Program-made: the position numbers and the translations under genes
Notes under the pieces: model-generated
The model's database searches: none
Told to the model about the DNA's origin: nothing
Seen by the model: the letters and a program-made list of their open reading frames with translations, nothing else
Part shown: in pieces, positions 9,869 through 63,952 of the stretch
Layout of the letters: each line of letters starts with the position of its first letter
Numbering within the stretch: the stretch's first letter is position 1
From: Synechococcus sp. 8F6
GTDB taxonomy: Bacteria; Cyanobacteriota; Cyanobacteriia; PCC-6307; Cyanobiaceae
Assembly: GCF_002252665.1 (NCBI RefSeq)
Contig: NZ_NQKZ01000001.1
Span: forward strand, 310,001-374,000
Length of the DNA stretch: 64,000 nucleotides
Direction: 5' to 3'

Positions 9869-10240
9869 ATGTCCAAGAAGCGCAAGCGGATCAGCCGTCG
9901 CCGGCTCGCCGGCCAGCGGGTACTGGCCCATGTCCCCACCTTCAACCTGGAAACGGGTTCCCACAAGCCGGTCACAGCGGCCCGCCGCTACATCGCCGAG
10001 GAGCTGCTGGTGCCCCCCGCGATCCTCAACGTGCGCCGCAACGAGCACACCACCGATCGCTTCTTCTGGGGCGAGAAGGGCCTGTTCAGTGCCCAGTACG
10101 CCGAAGAAAATCATTTCCTGTTCCCTTCGCTGCGTTCGATCGTCGATCGCATCGGTGAAGACGTTCTGTTCGAAGGCATCGAAGCCCTCGCCGCCGATGA
10201 CTGGGAGGAAATGGAAGAGTACGAATACGCCTTCGTCTGA
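9869..10240 (+). CDS. DUF3155 family protein
   Basis: A 123-residue cyanobacteria-specific protein of unknown function. It starts very basic (MSKKRKRISRRRLAGQRVL), continues with the conserved HVPTFNLETGSHKPVTAARRYI, and ends strongly acidic (DDWEEMEEYEYAFV). The basic head suggests nucleic-acid or ribosome contact, but that is inference. ATG 9869 was chosen because the conserved start follows it and a GGGAG lies 8 bases upstream; the open frame upstream is non-conserved. It is followed by the convergent hydrolase gene, with a GC-rich hairpin (10256-10274) between the two ends. Confidence 0.85.
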   Translation: MSKKRKRISRRRLAGQRVLAHVPTFNLETGSHKPVTAARRYIAEELLVPPAILNVRRNEHTTDRFFWGEKGLFSAQYAEENHFLFPSLRSIVDRIGEDVLFEGIEALAADDWEEMEEYEYAFV

Positions 10241-10252
10241 CAGGCGATCTCC

Positions 10253-10882
10253 TCAGGCCGGCCACTGGCCGGCCAGGTAATGGCGCAGGGCTGGAAACAG
10301 GCTGGTGTCGATGGTGTGACCACCGGCAAAGCCGATCAGGTCAGTCTCAATTCCACCTTGGCGCAGTTGCTCCTGCAGCGCTTCGCTCGCCCCATAGGGC
10401 ACCACCGGATCCTGTTCGCCATGGGTGAGCAGGATCTTTTTGATGGTCTGTGCGCCGGGCTGCCAATCCGGATGGGGATAGCCGCTGCAGCTGATCAGTC
10501 CGGCCAGGGGCAGACCTGCTCCGGATGTGCTCACATCCAGGGCCATGGCAGCCCCCTGGGAGAAGCCCAGCAGCACCGTCTGCTCCAGGGGCACCTCGGA
10601 GGCAAGCTGCTCCAGCCGTTGGCGCAGATGGGTCCGGGCCGCGGGCAGCTGGGGCCAGTTCGGCTGCTGCAGGTCGTACCACTGGCGGCCGCTGCCGCCC
10701 GGGTGGGGCAGGGGTGCCCGCAGCGCCACCACGCTTACCGCGGGCTCCACCAGTAGCTCAGCCAGGTCGAGCAGGTCATCGGCGTCGGCGCCCCAGCCGT
10801 GCAGCAGCACCAGCCGCCGCTCGCTCTGGTGAGGGCCCAGCCGGATCAGGTTGTCGCTGGCGGGGCTGCTGGGGGCGGTCAT
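10253..10882 (-). CDS. Alpha/beta hydrolase, phospholipase/carboxylesterase family
   Basis: A 209-residue cytosolic serine hydrolase of the YpfH/carboxylesterase 2 group. The oxyanion segment LLHGWGADADD is at ~residues 26-36, the nucleophile elbow GFSQGAAMAL (Ser ~109), the acid near GEQDPVVPYG, and the catalytic His in FAGGHTID. Substrates in this family are small esters, acylglycerols or lysophospholipids; none can be assigned here. It is convergent with the DUF3155 gene and divergent from purH with a gap of about 54 bases. Confidence 0.85.
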   Translation of the reverse strand: MTAPSSPASDNLIRLGPHQSERRLVLLHGWGADADDLLDLAELLVEPAVSVVALRAPLPHPGGSGRQWYDLQQPNWPQLPAARTHLRQRLEQLASEVPLEQTVLLGFSQGAAMALDVSTSGAGLPLAGLISCSGYPHPDWQPGAQTIKKILLTHGEQDPVVPYGASEALQEQLRQGGIETDLIGFAGGHTIDTSLFPALRHYLAGQWPA

Positions 10883-54715: not shown

Positions 54716-54797
54716 GCCCACCTGGCGGAATTGGTAGACGCGCTGGTTTTAGGTACCAGTGGCCTTGGTCGTGGGGGTTCAAGTCCCCCGGTGGGCA
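54716..54797 (+). tRNA. tRNA-Leu (anticodon UAG)
   Basis: An 82-base class II tRNA: acceptor GCCCACC pairs with GGTGGGC, D arm TGGCGGAATTGGTAGACGC, anticodon stem-loop CTGGTTTTAGGTACCAG with TAG anticodon, a long variable arm (TGGCCTTGGTC), and T arm GGGGGTTCAAGTCCCCC. No encoded CCA. It reads CUN leucine codons. crtR starts about 55 bases downstream. Confidence 0.97.
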
Positions 54798-57523: not shown

Positions 57524-57866
57524 GGCAGCCCGCAGGCCTGATGCATCAAGGCCCAGTCTGCTGGCTGCCGCGGCTGCTGGCGAGCAGCGCCCCGATCTTG
57601 TGGGGAATCCGTTGCCGAAGGCGTTCTTCGCCCGCCCCGCTGAGGTGGTTGCCCCCGAGCTGATCGGCTGCCTGCTGGTGAAACGCCAACCCACTGGGGA
57701 GCTGCTCTGGGGCGTGATTGTGGAAACGGAGGCGTATTGCCAATCCGAGCCCGCCTGTCACGGGCACCGCCGCCGCACCCCCAGCAACGAAACCCTGTTT
57801 GGGGAGCCAGGGCGGTTTTATGTCTATGTGAGTTATGGCATTCACCACTGCGTGAAGGCGGCCTGA
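57522..57866 (+). pseudogene. 3-methyladenine DNA glycosylase, truncated 5' remnant
   Basis: The frame encodes the first half of an AAG/MPG-type alkylpurine DNA glycosylase: [21 protein letters not shown], the catalytic [30 protein letters not shown]. In intact homologues the sequence continues as a valine/asparagine-rich core for another ~90 residues; here it ends two codons later at a stop (57864-57866). The break is at about 57855, where the mobile island begins. Start codon uncertain: ATG 57522 or GTG 57600. Function presumably lost unless the island excises. Confidence 0.82.
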
Positions 57867-58091: not shown

Positions 58092-59168
58092 ATGAGGAAA
58101 GCACCATCGCTGAGAAGCAACAACGGGGCACTGCAGGTCCGTGTGCGCCTTGATGGGCGGGATGTCTTCATCAACCGTCTGGGTCGCTGGGAAGACCCTG
58201 TGGCAGTGGCGAGGGCACAGGCCATCAGTGCCCAGATATGGAGCGACTACCAAGAGGGGACGTTTGACCGCTCCCTGCTGCGCTACACGCCACTGGTGAA
58301 GGGTCAGCAGGTAGGACTGCTGGATGCGATGCAGGCACTGGCAGACAGCACCCATAACGCCCGCTGCATCCATGCCCTGAGGGTCGTGCAGGGTTACGGG
58401 AAACCGCTGAGAAACCGCAGTGACGTTGAGGACTTTGTGCGGTGGATGCAGGCCAAGCCTCTTGCCAACCGCACCATCGCTGGGATTTTGCAGGTGTGCC
58501 GCAATGCCAACCCCAGCAACCGCCAACTCTTTACCTACCGCCTGACCCTCAAGCAGCGGTCTGTGCAGAGCGATGTGCTGAGCATTGAGGAAATCGGCAT
58601 GGTGCTCAGGGACATGAAGGAGCAGGAGAGCTGGTTTTACCCGCTGTTTCTGCTCTGGTTGAGCACGGGACTACGGAATGCCGAGATTCGGGGACTGACC
58701 TGGGACTGCATCCGCTGGACCGACAAGGAGCTGCTGGTCTGTAAGTCGCTGAGAAGGGATGGTTATTCCAGCGGGAAGGTGGTCTGGGCGACGACCAAGA
58801 CAGGCAAGGAGCGTGTCGTGCCCCTGAGCGATGCGGTGATGGAGACCCTGCTGGAGCACCAGTGCCAGATGCAGGAGCAGGGCCTGTATCAGCGAGAGGG
58901 GCTGGTTTTCCTATCGCCTGACACCTACACCAATGTGTATGACCATCTGTTGGGTCGGGTGTGGCATCGGTCCTTGAAGCGGTGCGACCTGAAACCACGA
59001 CGCCTCTATGCCCAGCGCCACAGTTTTCTGTCCCATGCGCTGGCGATGGGTAACTCACCAGCAGACCTGGCACAGATTGCTGGCCATTCCACCGAGATGC
59101 TGCTGAAGACCTATGCCAAGCCAACAGGCCGCATTAAGTTGCCGTCATGGCCTGAAATTGCAAATTGA
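58092..59168 (+). CDS. Tyrosine recombinase / phage-type integrase
   Basis: A 358-residue site-specific recombinase likely driving integration and excision of the island. N-terminal arm-binding part (LQVRVRLDGRDVFINRLGRW, ~residues 14-33, similar to DUF3596-type Arm domains), core-binding region, and a catalytic domain with all key residues: Arg in STGLRNAEIRGL, Lys in TKTGKERVVPL, RHSF with the second Arg (Tyr at the usual His position of HxxR), His in GHSTEM and the nucleophile Tyr in LKTYAKP. ATG 58092. Intermediate base composition between core and AT-rich island. Closest known group: integrases of cyanobacterial islands and phages. Confidence 0.9.
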   Translation: MRKAPSLRSNNGALQVRVRLDGRDVFINRLGRWEDPVAVARAQAISAQIWSDYQEGTFDRSLLRYTPLVKGQQVGLLDAMQALADSTHNARCIHALRVVQGYGKPLRNRSDVEDFVRWMQAKPLANRTIAGILQVCRNANPSNRQLFTYRLTLKQRSVQSDVLSIEEIGMVLRDMKEQESWFYPLFLLWLSTGLRNAEIRGLTWDCIRWTDKELLVCKSLRRDGYSSGKVVWATTKTGKERVVPLSDAVMETLLEHQCQMQEQGLYQREGLVFLSPDTYTNVYDHLLGRVWHRSLKRCDLKPRRLYAQRHSFLSHALAMGNSPADLAQIAGHSTEMLLKTYAKPTGRIKLPSWPEIAN

Positions 59169-59563
59169 AAAAGGATGCTTATTCCTAATCTATAAAAGTG
59201 GGTGCATCCTATCTCAATGCCTCATCATCAAATCACTGGCCAGGGTCTCAGTCCTGTAGGTAGGGAGCAGCAGGGTCCCTCTGTCTGCGTTGCTGATGCT
59301 GCTTGACCTTGTGTGCCAGTCGTGCAGAGCACCCTGCCTGCTGCTGAGGGGTCAGGCGAGGCAGTTTGGTGATGGCTGGTTTCGGTGGTCCTGAAATCAT
59401 TTGATTCTGTTTGCTTTCAGCACCATCTCCAGCACTGCTGCAACCAGTTTTCTCGATTCCACTACCTGATTCCACCACCTCTTCACCAGACACCCCTGTG
59501 ACCTTCCCAGAGACCCTCTGAGCAGCATTGGAGAGTGTGGGTGCATTGGTGCCCTTCCCCGTC

Positions 59564-59573
59564 AGACCCAACC
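59564..59573. repeat. Target-site duplication, left copy
   Basis: AGACCCAACC directly before the left inverted repeat; identical to 60816-60825 after the right one. In the interrupted gene it codes (on the minus strand) for the LGL part of a glycine/leucine segment. Confidence 0.9.
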
Positions 59574-60815
59574 CAGGGCTGATTCAAAGTTTCAGCAGGG
59601 TTTCGCTTCCGGCCGGCGCATCGCCATCGCCAGCAGTGCCGTGATGTCGTGCATCACCGCCTGCAAGCCAGCCCGGATTGACCGGAACCCAGCCAGGCGC
59701 AACAGGTTCAAGGCGGCGGTGCGCAACGTGGCCATGACGCCGGCGCCATTCCCCCGGTAGCGGTGGGCGTCCTCGTGGAGCTGGGTGTCGCGAATCCAGT
59801 GCCAGCCCTCAATGCTCCAGCGGTCGCGCACCAGTTGCAGCAGTGTTTCTGGGGTGGTGCGCAGGCTGGTGATAAATAGGTGGGTGGCTTGAAACGGCTT
59901 GCCGTCGCGGGTGCCGACCGCAAACACCTCCACGATCCAGCTGGTGCCGATCCATGCCTCGCGGATGTGTTCCGGTGCCTGCTTGGCGCGCAGCGTCCAG
60001 GTGATGTCGCGGCCGTGGCCAGCCTCATGAGCCCCTGCTACAAAAGGGATCTTGCGCTTGCCCTGGAACTGGCTGTGGATCTGACGGTGGAGGTTTTTCT
60101 GGTTCGCCTTGACCGTCAGGAGGAAGTCGGCCCCCTGCTCCTGGAGCTGCCGAAAAACGGGCGCTGGGTATGGAGCGCGTCCGCCTGGATCAGCACGCCC
60201 TCGAGATCCAGCTCGCCGAGCAGTTGGCGCAGCACCGCCCGCTCGTGGTTTTCGCCGGTGGCGTAGCAGGCCTGGCTGATCGCCACACCCAAGGTGGCCG
60301 AATACAGCGTGACCTGGGCAATGAACGCCGAGCCGCCACCGGCGGTGGGCTTTATGGAGCCTCGGAGCGTCTTGCCGTCACACACCAGCTGATCGAGATC
60401 GCCTGCCCCGCCTGGGATCTGGGCGATTGTCCAGTCACGGATCGCAGCGCACAGCGCCGTCACGTCCACCTGGTGAAAGAAGTAGCGGAACGAGGAATCT
60501 GATGGCGGACGCCTGAGCTCAATCCCCAGCGCCTTGGTAAGAACGGTGTGGTGGCGTATGGCGAATCGCTCCAGATCCCGCAGGCTCTGGCAGCCGCTCA
60601 GGATTCCGAGCACGGCCACCAGCAGCAGATACCAAGACGGGAAACGCACCCCACGTCGCATCCGGGCATCTGGAATCGACCTCAGGTAGCTGATCAGGTC
60701 GAGATCGGTTGCGGCAGAGGCGCTGTCGGGCACAAGGAGGAGGCGTTTCCACCGACCTCAACCCATGCTGACAGAAGCGCCAAGGGCGGCTGTGACACAC
60801 TTTGAATCAGCCCTG
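59574..60815. mobile_element. ISAs1-family insertion sequence (1242 bp)
   Basis: Outer ends are perfect 17-bp terminal inverted repeats (CAGGGCTGATTCAAAGT at 59574-59590 and its complement at 60799-60815). They are flanked by a perfect 10-bp direct repeat AGACCCAACC (59564-59573 and 60816-60825), the target duplication. The single gene between them is an ISAs1-type DDE transposase, minus strand, broken by a frameshift. Size and ~10-bp duplication fit ISAs1. Insertion interrupts a zinc-ribbon gene. Confidence 0.93.
59592..60733 (-). pseudogene. ISAs1-type transposase, frameshifted
   Basis: The N-terminal half (from 60733) holds the H-repeat-associated domain and ISAs1 hallmarks: PDARMRRGVRFPSW, VCDGKTLRGS with the first catalytic Asp, and QADALHTQRPFF with the second. 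A run of five T on the coding strand (60153-60157 as A on the plus strand) then shifts the frame and the first ORF soon stops at 60116. In the -1 frame the rest of the protein continues: RQLQEQGADFLLTVKANQ, the WSIEGWHWIRDTQLHEDAHR region and a final EAKPC stop at 59592. One missing base in the T run explains it, so this copy is probably inactive unless slippage occurs. Confidence 0.88.
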
Positions 60816-60825
60816 AGACCCAACC
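60816..60825. repeat. Target-site duplication, right copy
   Basis: AGACCCAACC directly after the right inverted repeat, the second copy of the 10-bp duplication made when the IS inserted. Confidence 0.9.
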
Positions 60826-61153
60826 CATCACGCTCTGCCACATACTCCAAGAAGAGCGATGGAAAGTGGTCTTCTAAGAAGGTGTGAAACTGCTTGCCAG
60901 TCCCACAGCGATGACACTTGAAGTTGAGTGCATTGCCATTGCTGTAGAAGTATCCTTTGCAACGACCTGAAGTCATTGCTCGACCTTTGTGGTCTTTGCT
61001 TCCCAGTTGGCAATAAGGGCACTGGAAACGGTAGGCATTGAGTTGCCTGCTGAAGTGCGGTAGCAAGCCGCTAATTTGATTCAAATACTTGTCTTCTATG
61101 CTTGAAATACTGAGATTTAATGTCATGGCGATATCGGCTTTCTTTCTTTGGTG

Positions 61154-61182
61154 ATTATAGCATAGAATTTCTGATGTGTAAA
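61154..61182 (-). promoter_or_regulatory. Near-consensus sigma-70 promoter for the zinc-ribbon gene
   Basis: On the minus strand: TTTACA (61182-61177), 17 bases, then TATAAT (61159-61154). Five of six and six of six matches at ideal spacing. Predicted start of transcription is about 61147, leaving a ~20-base leader before ATG 61126. Confidence 0.75.
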
Positions 61183-61199
61183 TCCTCAAATGCATAAAT

Positions 61200-61215
61200 A
61201 ACCTTGTATAAGGTT
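61200..61215. promoter_or_regulatory. 16-bp palindrome between divergent promoters (candidate operator)
   Basis: AACCTT-GTAT-AAGGTT, perfect 6-bp arms. It lies between the minus-strand promoter (61154-61182) and the plus-strand promoter (61251-61279). The left half-site with its flank (AACCTTGTA) recurs at 61281-61289, directly after the plus-strand -10 box. A dimeric repressor could control both promoters. No regulator has been shown. Confidence 0.55.
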
Positions 61216-61250
61216 GAAGAAGATATTGGCTATTGATTCCCAAGGGGGTC

Positions 61251-61279
61251 TTGACATAAACGCTAAAAAGCATTATAAT
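61251..61279 (+). promoter_or_regulatory. Perfect-consensus sigma-70 promoter
   Basis: TTGACA (61251-61256), exactly 17 bases, TATAAT (61274-61279): every base matches the consensus. Predicted transcription start near 61286, 276 bases before the first plausible start codon (61562). Drives either a long-leader mRNA for the small genes or a separate small RNA. Confidence 0.8.
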
Positions 61280-61285
61280 AAACCT

Positions 61286-61560
61286 TGTAGTTGCTTCAAT
61301 CAAGTATCTATTGATTCTTCTGGTTGATTCCATTAAGATGCTCCATGAGGGAATCATTAAAGTCCCCTAAAGAAGCATCATCTAACTCCTCAAGTATTTA
61401 TCTTGAGTCAATATGGTGTTTATCCATTAAAACTCAAAAGAAGACCCAAATAAATATCAATCCGCTATTCATCTAAGACCGTATTGACTCAGGGGCCAGA
61501 TTCCTCCTGAATCAATTCATGATAAATAGTTAAAAATTAAATCAAGAAATCACCAGAAAA
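61286..61560 (+). ncRNA. Candidate structured leader or small RNA
   Basis: About 275 AT-rich bases after a perfect promoter with no convincing ORF but several self-complementary parts: TGATTCC/GGAATCA (about 61322-61355), CTCAAG/CTTGAG with a 7-base loop (about 61387-61406), and a long-range 15-base pair CTTGAGTCAATATGG (61402-61416) with CCGTATTGACTCAGG (61479-61493), two mismatches; the second and third compete for the same bases, as in a switch. No known RNA family recognised. Confidence 0.4.
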
Positions 61561-61561
61561 T

Positions 61562-61735
61562 ATGTATTGCAGAAGCAAGGTCCAGCAAATCAGTTTTAAG
61601 TGTAGAGAATATCCACTATTGATGTCACAGCAGAAAAAGTTGATGGAATTCTACGGAATGGACATGAGTGGTCTCTACAAGCACCTTCTTAGAGAAAAGC
61701 ACTCTCAACTGTTTTCTGCTTCAGTCGCTCCATGA
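61562..61735 (+). CDS. Small ribbon-helix-helix-like protein, 57 aa
   Basis: ATG 61562 to TGA 61735 encodes MYCRSKVQQISFKCREYPLL... with a short beta-strand-like segment (QQISFKC), a helix (LLMSQQKKLMEFYGM) and a second helix (MSGLYKHLLREK), the order seen in Arc/CopG-type DNA-binding proteins. Not recognised as a known family. The stop overlaps the next ATG (ATGA), showing coupled translation, which supports both genes. The ribosome-binding site is weak. Base composition is that of the AT-rich island. Confidence 0.55.
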   Translation: MYCRSKVQQISFKCREYPLLMSQQKKLMEFYGMDMSGLYKHLLREKHSQLFSASVAP

Positions 61736-61893
61736 AAACCTACCGCATTCAGTTAGACCCAGTGGAGGTTGCGATGCTCCAGGAGGTGCAGAAGGTTAAT
61801 CGTGACTATAGGGACTTGCAAGTATTGGTCTCAAGTCAAATTCGTCTGGAATATGCAAAGATGCCTAAGAGTAGGCAGCAAGTAGCGCATTGA
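61732..61893 (+). CDS. Small ribbon-helix-helix-like protein, 53 aa
   Basis: ATG 61732 to TGA 61893: MKTYRIQLDPVEVAMLQEVQ and on, with a strand (TYRIQL), helix (PVEVAMLQEVQKV) and second helix (LQVLVSSQIRLEYAK). It is related to the 60-aa protein at 62689: both begin MKT-aromatic/His-RIQL and share the spacing of acidic and Leu residues. It overlaps the preceding gene by 4 bases. Likely DNA-binding dimer, by pattern only. Confidence 0.6.
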   Translation: MKTYRIQLDPVEVAMLQEVQKVNRDYRDLQVLVSSQIRLEYAKMPKSRQQVAH

Positions 61894-61953
61894 ATCGACA
61901 CAACACACCATCCCCTGGCATCAGATTCTCGTCATGTCTAGAGCGATTGCCTG

Positions 61954-61982
61954 TTGACAATGTGGGAAGCGGGTGCTAAAAT
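61954..61982 (+). promoter_or_regulatory. Near-consensus sigma-70 promoter
   Basis: TTGACA (61954-61959), 17 bases, TAAAAT (61977-61982). The predicted start of transcription falls on or next to ATG 61989, so the mRNA may be leaderless; it drives the genes at 61989, 62110 and 62324 up to the terminator at 62592. Confidence 0.75.
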
Positions 61983-61988
61983 AAACAC

Positions 61989-62126
61989 ATGAAAGACAGG
62001 CCTAATATTTCACTTGAAATTCCAGAATGTCCTTCATTAGCATCTAATGCTACGGCGCAAGCCAATACATCTTTGCCTCAAGGGGCGTATTTATTATTTG
62101 GAGAATACTATGACAAACGCTATTAA
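61989..62126 (+). CDS. Possible leaderless small ORF, 45 aa
   Basis: Starts ATG 61989, six bases past a -10 box, so no leader would remain. Protein MKDRPNISLEIPECPSLASN... ends YLLFGEYYDKRY. No family seen. Its stop overlaps the 76-aa gene's start region by 17 bases, as coupled small genes do. It could be chance; support is positional. Confidence 0.35.
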   Translation: MKDRPNISLEIPECPSLASNATAQANTSLPQGAYLLFGEYYDKRY

Positions 62127-62340
62127 TAACAATCTCTGGGAGGTTGAGGTCTTTTATGTCCTTCCTGCCGAAGACGAGGAGTTTGGGATTGCTTGGGAGG
62201 AGCATGTAGAAAAATGCTCGGTTTTGCTTCCTGCCCATATCGTAGATAATGACGAGGCACTCAAATACATCCAGAAATCGTCGGATTGGGTGGTCAATCT
62301 TGTGTCCGCAACTCCCGTCGCAGTTGAGTCAAATCAATAA
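62110..62340 (+). CDS. Unknown acidic protein, 76 aa
   Basis: ATG 62110 is preceded by GGAG (62100-62103) at ideal spacing. The protein (MTNAINNNLWEVEVFYVLPA...) is acidic in the middle (EDEEFGIAWEEHVEKC) and has a beta-alpha-beta look (WEVEVFYVL, HIVDNDEALKYIQ, WVVNLVSATPVAV), similar in layout to small phage proteins. No family assigned. It overlaps the next frame and shares one transcript with it. Confidence 0.6.
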   Translation: MTNAINNNLWEVEVFYVLPAEDEEFGIAWEEHVEKCSVLLPAHIVDNDEALKYIQKSSDWVVNLVSATPVAVESNQ

Positions 62341-62566
62341 GGAGGTAAAAGGATTCCTCGCGGAAGCAGTAAGCACACTTCGTCCACATACCATCAATGG
62401 TCGGGTGACTACGATTAATAACCGTGGTCACCTTAAAATCAAGTGTGAATTCCCATCAGGCACTCGCGCATTCGTAATGGGCACAACCCCAAGTGACTAT
62501 CGATGGAAGCATCAAGCCCTTTCGGCGTTGAAGCGTTTTATCTGCACAGCAATCCTTGAAAACTAA
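62324..62566 (+). CDS. Small basic protein, HicA-like C-terminal pattern (start uncertain)
   Basis: The frame from TTG 62324 encodes ~80 residues ending in GRVTTINNRGHLKIKCEFPSG and FVMGTTPSDYRWKHQALSALKRF. The order strand-Gly-His-strand-Pro followed by TPSD-R and a helix is the pattern of HicA-like, double-stranded-RNA-binding-fold phage proteins. A strong Shine-Dalgarno (AAGGAGGT, 62339-62346) lies inside the frame just after the upstream stop, with no usual start codon at correct distance; GTG 62405 is another candidate. Toxin activity is not claimed. Confidence 0.5.
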   Translation: MSQINKEVKGFLAEAVSTLRPHTINGRVTTINNRGHLKIKCEFPSGTRAFVMGTTPSDYRWKHQALSALKRFICTAILEN

Positions 62567-62688: not shown

Positions 62689-62871
62689 ATGAAGACCCAC
62701 CGAATCCAACTGACAGCCGAAGAGCAGAAGAAACTGGAGCAGGTCCTCAGGCGCCTCAGGCAGCATGATGTGCAGTGGTATTTTTTGGCGCTCCTGCAGA
62801 AGCAGTGGCTGAAGTCGTGCCAGGTAAACTCTAATTTTGACATCTATCGCCATTTAAAACTTGCTTCTTAA
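62689..62871 (+). CDS. Small ribbon-helix-helix-like protein, 60 aa
   Basis: ATG 62689 with AGGAG (62679-62683) five bases upstream, stop 62871. MKTHRIQLTAEEQKKLEQVL... shares its first eight positions, apart from one, with the protein at 61732, and has the strand-helix-helix arrangement (HRIQL, AEEQKKLEQVLRRL, WYFLALLQKQWL). Basic overall. Its tail overlaps the convergent J-domain gene by 18 bases. Probably a DNA-binding paralogue. Confidence 0.65.
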   Translation: MKTHRIQLTAEEQKKLEQVLRRLRQHDVQWYFLALLQKQWLKSCQVNSNFDIYRHLKLAS

Positions 62872-63288
62872 TGTGTGGTATGCGGCATTGATTATTTTGG
62901 CCCTTCTAGTGGCCTCATCTTGGATTTCCTTGCTGCACTTTGCAAACAAGTCAGGATGATAAATGCCGATTAACTGCCTGTAAGCTGTCTTGACATTTGA
63001 AAGGGATAAATCAGATGATTTATTCTTAATTCCAAGCACTTTATAGGGGTCCCTTGTAGTAAATCTGCTTGGTGGGTGAGGAAAGCGTATTTCTTCTTTT
63101 CCTTTCTCTCCTTGCTGCTGACGAGGTGCTCCCAGCAGCAGGCTGGCTTGATATTTGGAAGCTTTTGGCTTTAATGCTAAATCCCAATCTCCACGCAGTA
63201 TGCTATACAGGTCAACAGTTTTAGAGATTATCTCTAGCAAAAGAATGCCAGCAAAGCCGCCTGCCATTAACGCAAAAACTATTAACAT
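62854..63288 (-). CDS. Membrane-anchored J-domain protein
   Basis: A 144-residue protein: N-terminal membrane helix (MLIVFALMAGGFAGILLLEI), a ~50-residue linker, and a C-terminal J domain (from about residue 80, DPYKVLGIKNKS) with the HPD motif in GIYHPDLFAKCS and an end helix AKIINAAYHTLRSKF. J domains recruit and stimulate DnaK; with no other chaperone domain and a membrane anchor, it likely brings DnaK to a membrane partner, perhaps the next protein. It lies 37 bases downstream of that gene. Confidence 0.8.
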   Translation of the reverse strand: MLIVFALMAGGFAGILLLEIISKTVDLYSILRGDWDLALKPKASKYQASLLLGAPRQQQGEKGKEEIRFPHPPSRFTTRDPYKVLGIKNKSSDLSLSNVKTAYRQLIGIYHPDLFAKCSKEIQDEATRRAKIINAAYHTLRSKF

Positions 63289-63325: not shown

Positions 63326-63952
63326 TTAGCCTTTAAAAGACAGCCATTTCTTCATGCTGCCAAATTCATCATTTCGTGCTAACTTGACAACTATCCATGC
63401 GAGGCCTGCGTAAGCAACAGACATTGCAGCTATTGACTTAGCCCACATGTAGTCACGCTCGAATTCTGAGCGAGCATTTTGCGTATTGGGCGAAAGCATT
63501 CCGAAAATTCCAACTACCAGGCCGATGACGGATACAACTGAAAAGCATCTTGCATAACAGGTTGCAAGGAAACCCCAGTAACCGCTTGGATTAGCGTGTC
63601 GAGCAGCTTTAAAACTGCACCCAAGCATGTAGACTAGAGATATAAAGTATACAACAGCAGACGTTGTATTAAGAGGGCCTTCGGGGACCGCAAGCATGTA
63701 TAAAATAAACATTGCGACTAACGCAGGTATGCCTGCCATGATTGGTGAGAATATTGTCATCAGCGCGTCTGTCTTGTCTATGAAGAGCGTTACCCGCTGC
63801 TTGCTGTGTAAGATTGCTACGACGACAAATCCAATGATTCCAAAAATCCACGACCGAGTTGAGAAATACTCTGAGAGTATCTCAACAACAGGATTTGCTG
63901 CGGATGTGCTTGTAGTTGCACTGGTCGCTAGCAGATAAAACGATTCGAGCAT
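63326..63952 (-). CDS. Unknown multi-pass membrane protein, 208 aa
   Basis: About five membrane helices: WIFGIIGFVVVAILHS, IFSPIMAGIPALVAMFILYM, AVVYFISLVYMLGCSF, FSVVSVIGLVVGIFGML and IAAMSVAYAGLAWIVVKLA. The N-terminus is Ser/Thr-rich and short. No family recognised. Start ATG 63952. Same strand as the J-domain gene, 37 bases upstream of it, so probably one operon. Base composition matches the AT-rich island, so it is likely cargo of the mobile element. Confidence 0.65.
   Translation of the reverse strand: MLESFYLLATSATTSTSAANPVVEILSEYFSTRSWIFGIIGFVVVAILHSKQRVTLFIDKTDALMTIFSPIMAGIPALVAMFILYMLAVPEGPLNTTSAVVYFISLVYMLGCSFKAARHANPSGYWGFLATCYARCFSVVSVIGLVVGIFGMLSPNTQNARSEFERDYMWAKSIAAMSVAYAGLAWIVVKLARNDEFGSMKKWLSFKG

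Follow-up and report, generated by a model that had tools for sequence, protein, structure and literature searches.

In the genome of Synechococcus sp. 8F6 (2.51 Mb in 84 contigs), a control region inside an integrative island of about 6.7 kb carries two kinds of element, sigma70 promoters and ATAAATA, which looks like a T4-type late promoter, and in this and related islands one operator word, exact or degenerate, follows ATAAATA and the plus-side sigma70 promoter. The best explanation, to which we give a probability just short of even, is an autoregulated island switch that would couple host transcription to the late transcription of an infecting T4-like cyanophage, as in a satellite or anti-phage island. 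Coordinates are those of the window, the whole stretch of 64,000 nucleotides from 310001 to 374000 of its contig, unless a locus is named. The elements of the control region are as follows.

61154 to 61182, minus strand: sigma70 promoter TTTACA-17-TATAAT with TG, 11 of 12 matches to the consensus.
61194 to 61200, plus strand: ATAAATA, by motif a candidate T4-type late promoter directly before O1, one A in common.
61200 to 61215, no strand: O1, candidate palindromic operator AACCTTGTATAAGGTT, 16 bp, kept in related islands.
61251 to 61279, plus strand: sigma70 promoter TTGACA-17-TATAAT, 12 of 12 matches.
61281 to 61296, no strand: O2, candidate degenerate second operator AACCTTGTAGTTGCTT over the plus start site.
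61395 to 61401, minus strand: ATAAATA facing the zinc-ribbon gene, in a block GATAAATACTT(G/C)AGGA kept in 5 of 8 islands.
61450 to 61456, plus strand: ATAAATA, absent from the other seven aligned islands.
61522 to 61528, plus strand: ATAAATA, 33 nt upstream of the start codon of the first plus-side gene; the distance is 24-33 nt in 6 of 8 islands.

The two divergent promoters, described as near-perfect in the original prediction, lie where it had placed them and are far above the level of shuffled sequence. Promoters with at most one mismatch number three in 60813-62100, as compared with a mean of 0.044 in dinucleotide shuffles, of which 0/1000 reach three, and the one perfect promoter compares with a shuffle mean of 0.001 (1/1000). 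Eight islands can be aligned over the control region, and their conserved divergent layout bears out the earlier view of it as the control region of a mobile island: all eight have a plus promoter of the form TTGACA-17-TATAAT or a variant, with the minus -35 (TGTAAA on the plus strand) beginning exactly 23 nt left of O1. The palindrome proposed between the promoters is also present. AT-rich DNA such as this can well contain inverted repeats of that size by chance (four seen in 60813-62100 against a mean of 1.3, with 56 of 1000 dinucleotide shuffles reaching four); the palindrome was therefore rejected as stand-alone proof, and the weight of O1 comes from its conservation in related islands. 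The search of such islands for the 16-mer, which the original prediction had suggested, recovered it unchanged in the sister island of genome G134, which is without the IS element described below, and as variants in six more, so that the absence of conservation named there as grounds for refutation was not what we saw. With up to three mismatches the 16-mer has one place in the window and one in the whole genome, as does the reversed control pattern in the genome. This single place speaks, weakly given the equally single control, against the site of a host global regulator. A Pho box was likewise rejected: the sites are inverted and not tandem, though TAACCT resembles cyanobacterial Pho boxes as given in PMC3037559.

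The half-site said to be repeated after the plus -10 is there, the 9-mer AACCTTGTA recurring at 61281-61289, but alone it is at chance frequency. In 8/8 aligned islands the second copy of the operator word begins 0 or 1 nt past the plus -10, so that the half-site makes more sense as part of a second, degenerate operator that covers the start site of the plus promoter. This operator has the form AACC-TTGTAGTT-GCTT in the window and AACC-TTGTAGT-GGTT in the island of G177, a genome of the same family. Distances between O1 and O2 fall at 77-81 and 89-92 in the aligned islands, a helical phasing that with n=8 is suggestive only.

The ATAAATA directly before the palindrome had no place in the first account of this DNA. 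It immediately precedes O1 in 7/8 aligned islands, G177 having ATAGATA there. Over the eight islands the motif occurs 14 times in forward orientation, as against a shuffle mean of 1.26, and five times in reverse, as against 0.71 (0/500 shuffles in either case), mostly at three kept places: before O1 (7/8), 24-33 nt before RHH1, the first plus-side gene (6/8), and reversed in mid-leader (5/8). In the host genome (2.51 Mb) ATAAATA is found 24 times, with five occurrences inside the 0.9 kb from 61194 to 62094 and one in the IS. Eight other host contigs examined hold 11/24 sites; the closest groups are two within 0.4 kb and three on a single 5.6-kb contig, and most of these sites are internal to long ORFs. 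At the island sites before O1 a -35 with at least four matches is seen in 1/17, compared with 17% at random positions, which is none above chance. CTAAATA does not behave as a motif in the islands, with no copies in plus and two in minus orientation, a number that 33/500 shuffles reach. In a 50-kb structural stretch of cyanophage Syn9, ATAAATA is the only 7-mer in at least four of 26 upstream windows of 70 bp; it is in 5/26 where 0.23 would be expected, and seven forward and no reverse copies are present in the stretch. For phage DSL-LC03 the count is 3/33 upstream windows, with CTAAATA in 4/33. T4 late promoters have no -35 element according to a review (PMC2988020), and 5'-TATAAAT-3' has served as a T4 late promoter query for cyanophages in PMC3037559. 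The features of such promoters that are present at the island sites are the ATAAATA/TATAAATA -10 element and the lack of a -35, and by this likeness ATAAATA in the islands is a candidate T4-type late promoter. Four islands of another type also carry it, 161-196 nt past the integrase, and at other integrase loci it lies elsewhere or is missing (L063, for example, has none).

Relatives of the island were found by several routes. Among 300 family genomes, 25 have a match to the integrase (E 1e-20 or better), 18 to the zinc-ribbon protein (E 1e-4) and 20 to RHH1 (E 0.01, many close to that limit). The control region has no blastn match in phages or plasmids. A pattern for the whole layout found 29 stretches in GTDB contigs, of which two, in Vulcanococcus sp. 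Con.Enr.2019-1 and Cyanobium usitatum Tous, stand beside a zinc gene and the other 27 read as chance; in viral contigs it found three stretches, none of them true. A more general operator pattern with up to one mismatch hit 102/400 family genomes, mostly unspecifically, its reversed control being frequent in small-genome genera. A second operator word, AACTACGTAGTAGTT, defines class B and was met in G209 and in the second island pair of G134, found via the integrase. In class B the order is reversed, with the sigma70 promoter and its operator first, then ATAAATA and its operator, then RHH1; although the order of the promoter-operator modules thus differs from that of class A, the operator word, exact or degenerate, still follows each promoter. 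Further class B islands are those of G045, G080, G143 and G279 and, with one change, G214 and G247, all six beside a zinc gene; the pattern that found these six contains ATAAATA, and so their ATAAATA is not independent evidence. RHH1 is present in G045, G143 and G279 and was not found in G080, where the contig stops about 0.3 kb past the site, or in G214 and G247, whose contigs continue past the operator. Beside the operator G214 has transposase-like ORFs, and G247 has a small ORF, RHH2-like by eye, 1.1 kb on.

The association was then measured across zinc-gene loci. Two zinc-protein searches gave 49 loci (one hit without a locus is not among them), which after removal of four duplicates and one with a short upstream stretch left 44, each with 600 bp upstream (one with 421). 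An outward TTGACA sigma70 promoter is present in 32/44, against a mean of 0.69 and a maximum of 3 in 200 shuffles, and ATAAATA in the same orientation in 29/44, against a shuffle mean of 5.91 and a maximum of 13. The 12 loci without the sigma70 promoter are all distant (E 2e-14 or worse); the 15 without ATAAATA in the stretch tested include 11 at E above 1e-20 and four close homologues (E below 1e-20). Both elements occur at 25/44 loci, and in 23 of these the two operator words were compared; the two left out are G177, in which the element before O1 is not ATAAATA, and the second of the tandem copies in G134. At loci with several ATAAATA the first was used. On average the words that follow ATAAATA and the sigma70 -10 of the same locus agree at 6.48/9 positions, as compared with 5.59 for swapped pairs (0/5000 permutations) and 3.49/9 for letter-shuffled words. 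Individual loci vary between 3 and 9 matches, and O2 is poor in several class B islands, G279, G214 and G247 matching at 4/9. Since the islands are related, the shuffle and permutation tests overstate independence. When a single operator word recurs at the starts of two kinds of promoter, the best explanation is one repressor, encoded by the element, that guards both.

The remainder of the island has the following features.

57795 to 57856, no strand: left attachment-type repeat, closing the mpg 5' part; 62 nt, with an exact right copy ending at 64588, beyond the window.
58092 to 59168, plus strand: tyrosine integrase at the left end of the island (PF00589, E 4e-15; phrog_1 integrase, E 2e-35).
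59251 to 59573, minus strand: C-terminal part of the zinc-ribbon gene, past the IS, with 82% identity to the intact G134 protein at residues 124-231.
59574 to 60815, minus strand: IS element of 1.24 kb inside the zinc-ribbon gene, DDE transposase in two reading frames.
60816 to 61126, minus strand: N-terminal part of the zinc-ribbon gene, about 104 codons, a stand-alone zinc-binding domain of T4 gp61 primase type.
61562 to 61735, plus strand: RHH1, ribbon-helix-helix-like protein of 57 aa, first gene of the plus operon.
61732 to 61893, plus strand: RHH2, protein of 53 aa, strand-helix-helix type by eye, overlapping RHH1 by 4 nt.
62110 to 62340, plus strand: ORF common to the G134 (a) and G126 islands, start taken from homologues.
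62249 to 62566, plus strand: ORF common to the G134 (a) and G126 islands, weakly similar to phrog_2089.
62689 to 62871, plus strand: protein of 60 aa, weakly RHH2-like, sharing 79% identity over 42 residues with protein 2 of the sister island in G134.
62854 to 63288, minus strand: DnaJ-domain protein (PF00226, E 5e-10), cargo.
63326 to 63952, minus strand: probable membrane protein by eye, without a confident family, cargo.

The island occupies a gene that from its protein sequence we take to be mpg, for 3-methyladenine-DNA glycosylase, and its length of about 6.7 kb follows from the 62-nt repeats ending at 57856 and 64588. Left and right mpg copies share this exact run and are 91% identical over 236 nt; on integration the 5' part of mpg would be exchanged for the carried one, so that a single complete gene is restored. 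Pieces of mpg are at 57541-57856 and 64227-64946, the latter outside the window, and also border integrases in other genomes, G134 having two elements in tandem. The tRNA genes nearest to the island are at 54716-54797 and 68483-68555, and the attachment repeat itself is in mpg. Cargo varies among sister islands: in G134 (L057:12070-14005) a C5 cytosine methylase (PF00145, E 3e-55) and a 295-aa protein of no assigned function occupy the place of the DnaJ-domain and membrane proteins. Scans of the island proteins gave no capsid, packaging or excisionase gene, and among the ten island-region proteins scanned against Pfam (two of them IS transposase parts) there was no match to AlpA, DUF3987, a relaxase, a secretion system or a helix-turn-helix repressor. 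The last three absences, together with a minus-side gene that is primase-like, do not support the original reading of the layout as phage-immunity or conjugative-element control.

That minus-side gene is interrupted in 8F6 by the IS element, whose boundaries were taken from the junction sequences; it has terminal repeats CAGGGCTGATTCAAAGT and is flanked by a 10-bp duplication, AGACCCAACC, at 59564-59573 and 60816-60825. The output of the zinc-ribbon gene may therefore be impaired in this strain. Six uninterrupted homologues have about 191-231 aa. The translation used in the zinc-protein searches (60812-61126) extends 4 nt into the IS. As a profile the protein matches two T4 primase chains of the primosome (E 1.7e-6), and its predicted structure (pLDDT 83) matches the same chains (E 1.2e-4 and 1.4e-4), followed by a DnaG zinc domain at E 0.08. 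By tblastn it matches 534/50,697 phage records, of which 461 bear cyanophage names; among the 30 matches listed of these 534, 29 overlap a gene annotated as DNA primase, the remaining record being without annotation, and the matches end at residue 132-138 of 231, save two at 173. A match covering 80% of the protein was found in 0/534. By sequence, then, the zinc-ribbon protein is a homologue of the N-terminal zinc-binding domain of T4-type primase, without the RNA polymerase catalytic domain.

On the plus side, the small DNA-binding-like proteins that had been noted just downstream are RHH-like and recur in most of the related islands read, G214 and G247 being the exceptions. The ribbon-helix-helix identity of RHH1 is likely, though unproven. 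Its structural model (pLDDT 70) has two helices and no strand formed in the monomer, and in VIA alignment the first 11 of 16 rows (Z 5.4-2.5) include MatP, Arc, CopG and antitoxins, at Z values so low that they may mean merely a common arrangement; Foldseek gave no significant match (E-values 4.2 or worse). Searches by sequence against Pfam, PHROG and the PDB gave no confident match for RHH1, and its sequence profile gave no relevant match in the PDB. Neither the RHH1 of G177 nor two small proteins from G126, which belongs to the same genus as 8F6, have a phage match. RHH1 or RHH2 is the predicted operator-binding protein, an assignment inferred by position only. In the ORF at 62249-62566 homology begins at residue 24, so that its true start is uncertain. 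In G177 (L067, reverse), about 0.75-3.1 kb right of O1, two ORFs resembling IS21-type transposases by eye lie between two pieces of RHH2. The 280-nt leader preceding RHH1 (61286-61565) has a predicted folding energy of -58.9 kcal/mol, as compared with -45.8 when shuffled (z -3.15, 0/200 as good).

Under the explanation we favour, RHH1 (or RHH2) would bind O1 and O2 and, in a negative feedback loop, keep the two plus-directed promoters at low activity. At O1, centred about 60 bp upstream of where the minus transcript presumably begins, the repressor would act on the minus promoter as well, as the fixed distance between the two suggests. If ATAAATA is a T4-type late promoter, an infecting phage would switch the island operon on: infection by a T4-like cyanophage would be the inducing signal, phage gp55 and the sliding clamp driving the operon from ATAAATA, and the minus-oriented copy would give late transcription of the primase-like gene. 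The zinc-binding domain might then dock on the phage primosome or compete in it, with the result that the island replicates as a satellite or that the phage is hindered. The pairing of operator with promoter and the motif itself rest on sequence statistics; repressor, inducer, primosome contact and helper dependence are presumed from them. In this form, as induction by an infecting T4-like phage through the ATAAATA sites, the life-style switch of the original prediction is plausible. More tentatively, and as a possibility well below even, the islands may be a satellite family of T4-like cyanophages that carries its helper's late promoter, with an element-specific repressor guarding that promoter and a host promoter that bears the same operator word, and a captured gp61 zinc-binding domain coupling the element to the phage primosome.

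Several other explanations have to be weighed against this. An autoregulated but otherwise ordinary island, having no phage link, is a somewhat unlikely alternative in which ATAAATA would act as a second host promoter, a weak one, or would extend the operator with AT-rich sequence, the primase-like gene working in the island's own replication. It would agree with the sigma70 promoters and operators being the strongest features, with an AT-rich leader in which ATAAATA could serve the host, and with island-protein scans that showed no packaging genes and three small proteins without phage match. It accounts less well for ATAAATA standing above dinucleotide shuffles both in the eight islands and in the 44 loci, for its rarity in host DNA and lack of a -35, and for its being the motif of Syn9 and of four other-type islands past the integrase. 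An anti-phage island overlaps with the best explanation and differs in output: the late promoter would be a tripwire, the zinc domain a decoy poisoning the phage primosome, and mobility incidental. Homology to cyanophage gp61 without its catalytic domain would suit such a decoy, as would the C5 cytosine methylase of the sister island, a type of gene frequent in restriction-modification, but the integrase, the attachment repeats and the tandem copies point to mobility, and we consider this reading rather unlikely.

A replication origin, with O1, O2 and the long leader as iteron-like sites for the primase-like protein, is improbable. The long AT-rich leader with its recurring words, and an RNA folding that beats shuffles (z -3.15), would fit it; the operator copies, however, are at promoter start sites and move with them, and an origin has no reason to track -10 boxes. 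Least probable of all is a CI/Cro-like immunity switch or conjugative-element control region, which the divergent promoters with shared operators would match, but which is opposed by the primase-like minus gene and by the ten scanned proteins, with neither helix-turn-helix repressor nor relaxase or secretion gene among them.

Known kinds of system include divergent promoters that carry operators, as well as satellites and RHH regulators. CopG and Arc are RHH autoregulators, and they resemble RHH1 in predicted fold, small size, a palindromic operator nearby and the autoregulation presumed here; RHH1 differs in having no sequence family match. The likeness to PICMIs consists in a small island with an integrase, a primase-type gene and few others, dependence on a virulent phage being in our case only suspected. 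According to PMC10803314, PICMIs occur in Vibrionaceae, sit at fis and encode AlpA and a DUF3987/DUF5906 primase, and how the helper activates their early regulon is stated as open. Of int, alpA and DUF3987 the 8F6 island has only the integrase, and it differs further in its mpg site, gp61-type zinc domain and RHH-like proteins. Tycheposons, first described from Prochlorococcus, are, in what the citing descriptions say of them (PMC10872708, PMC11389934, PMC10803314), integrative elements with a tyrosine recombinase, proposed satellites of 4-200 kb with tRNA borders. As far as these descriptions allow comparison, the likeness is that of an integrative element with a tyrosine recombinase, whereas the present island has 6.7 kb, lies inside a protein gene and has no tRNA border. 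With T4-type late promoters, as PMC2988020 and PMC3037559 present them, the island elements share the TATAAAT-type element and the lack of a -35; they differ in being in an island of a bacterial chromosome with an operator directly after. We found no account of a chromosomal island with a T4-type late promoter under its own operator in the literature searched, in which subscription journals were thinly covered, and nothing on a system of the 8F6 type in that on tycheposons, mpg islands, cyanophage satellites and late promoters; no helper phage is known for the islands. How a virulent helper wakes a dormant satellite may here be readable from the DNA, as a phage-type late promoter under a repressor operator next to a host promoter with the same operator word, and this makes the question of switching on directly testable. 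If true, the reading would also mean that picocyanobacteria possess a small family of satellites or defence elements linked to T4-like cyanophages.

Some minor observations concern the wider set of loci. Distant homologues at L047 and L310 have further words after ATAAATA, such as ATATCTCTGTAGATAT, that suggest more operator classes. A second island type with the same integrase family has the integrase, ATAAATA and then a protein of 178-184 aa with an HxH motif (QFHTHLI/QYHTHMI), encoded at L059:8425-8979, L061:9712-10254, L060 (reverse) 1762-2304 and L062 (reverse) 10000-10536. By eye this protein is rolling-circle-Rep-like, its L059 copy being without a confident Pfam family; small RHH-like genes come next, and an IS200-like transposase is present in L061 (PF01797) and, by eye, in L059 and L060. 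In small-genome relatives of genus g18 (e.g. G095:C1:957635), many carry one copy of ATAAATCACT(A/T)TGTAGAGGTT, which resembles ATAAATA together with the operator.
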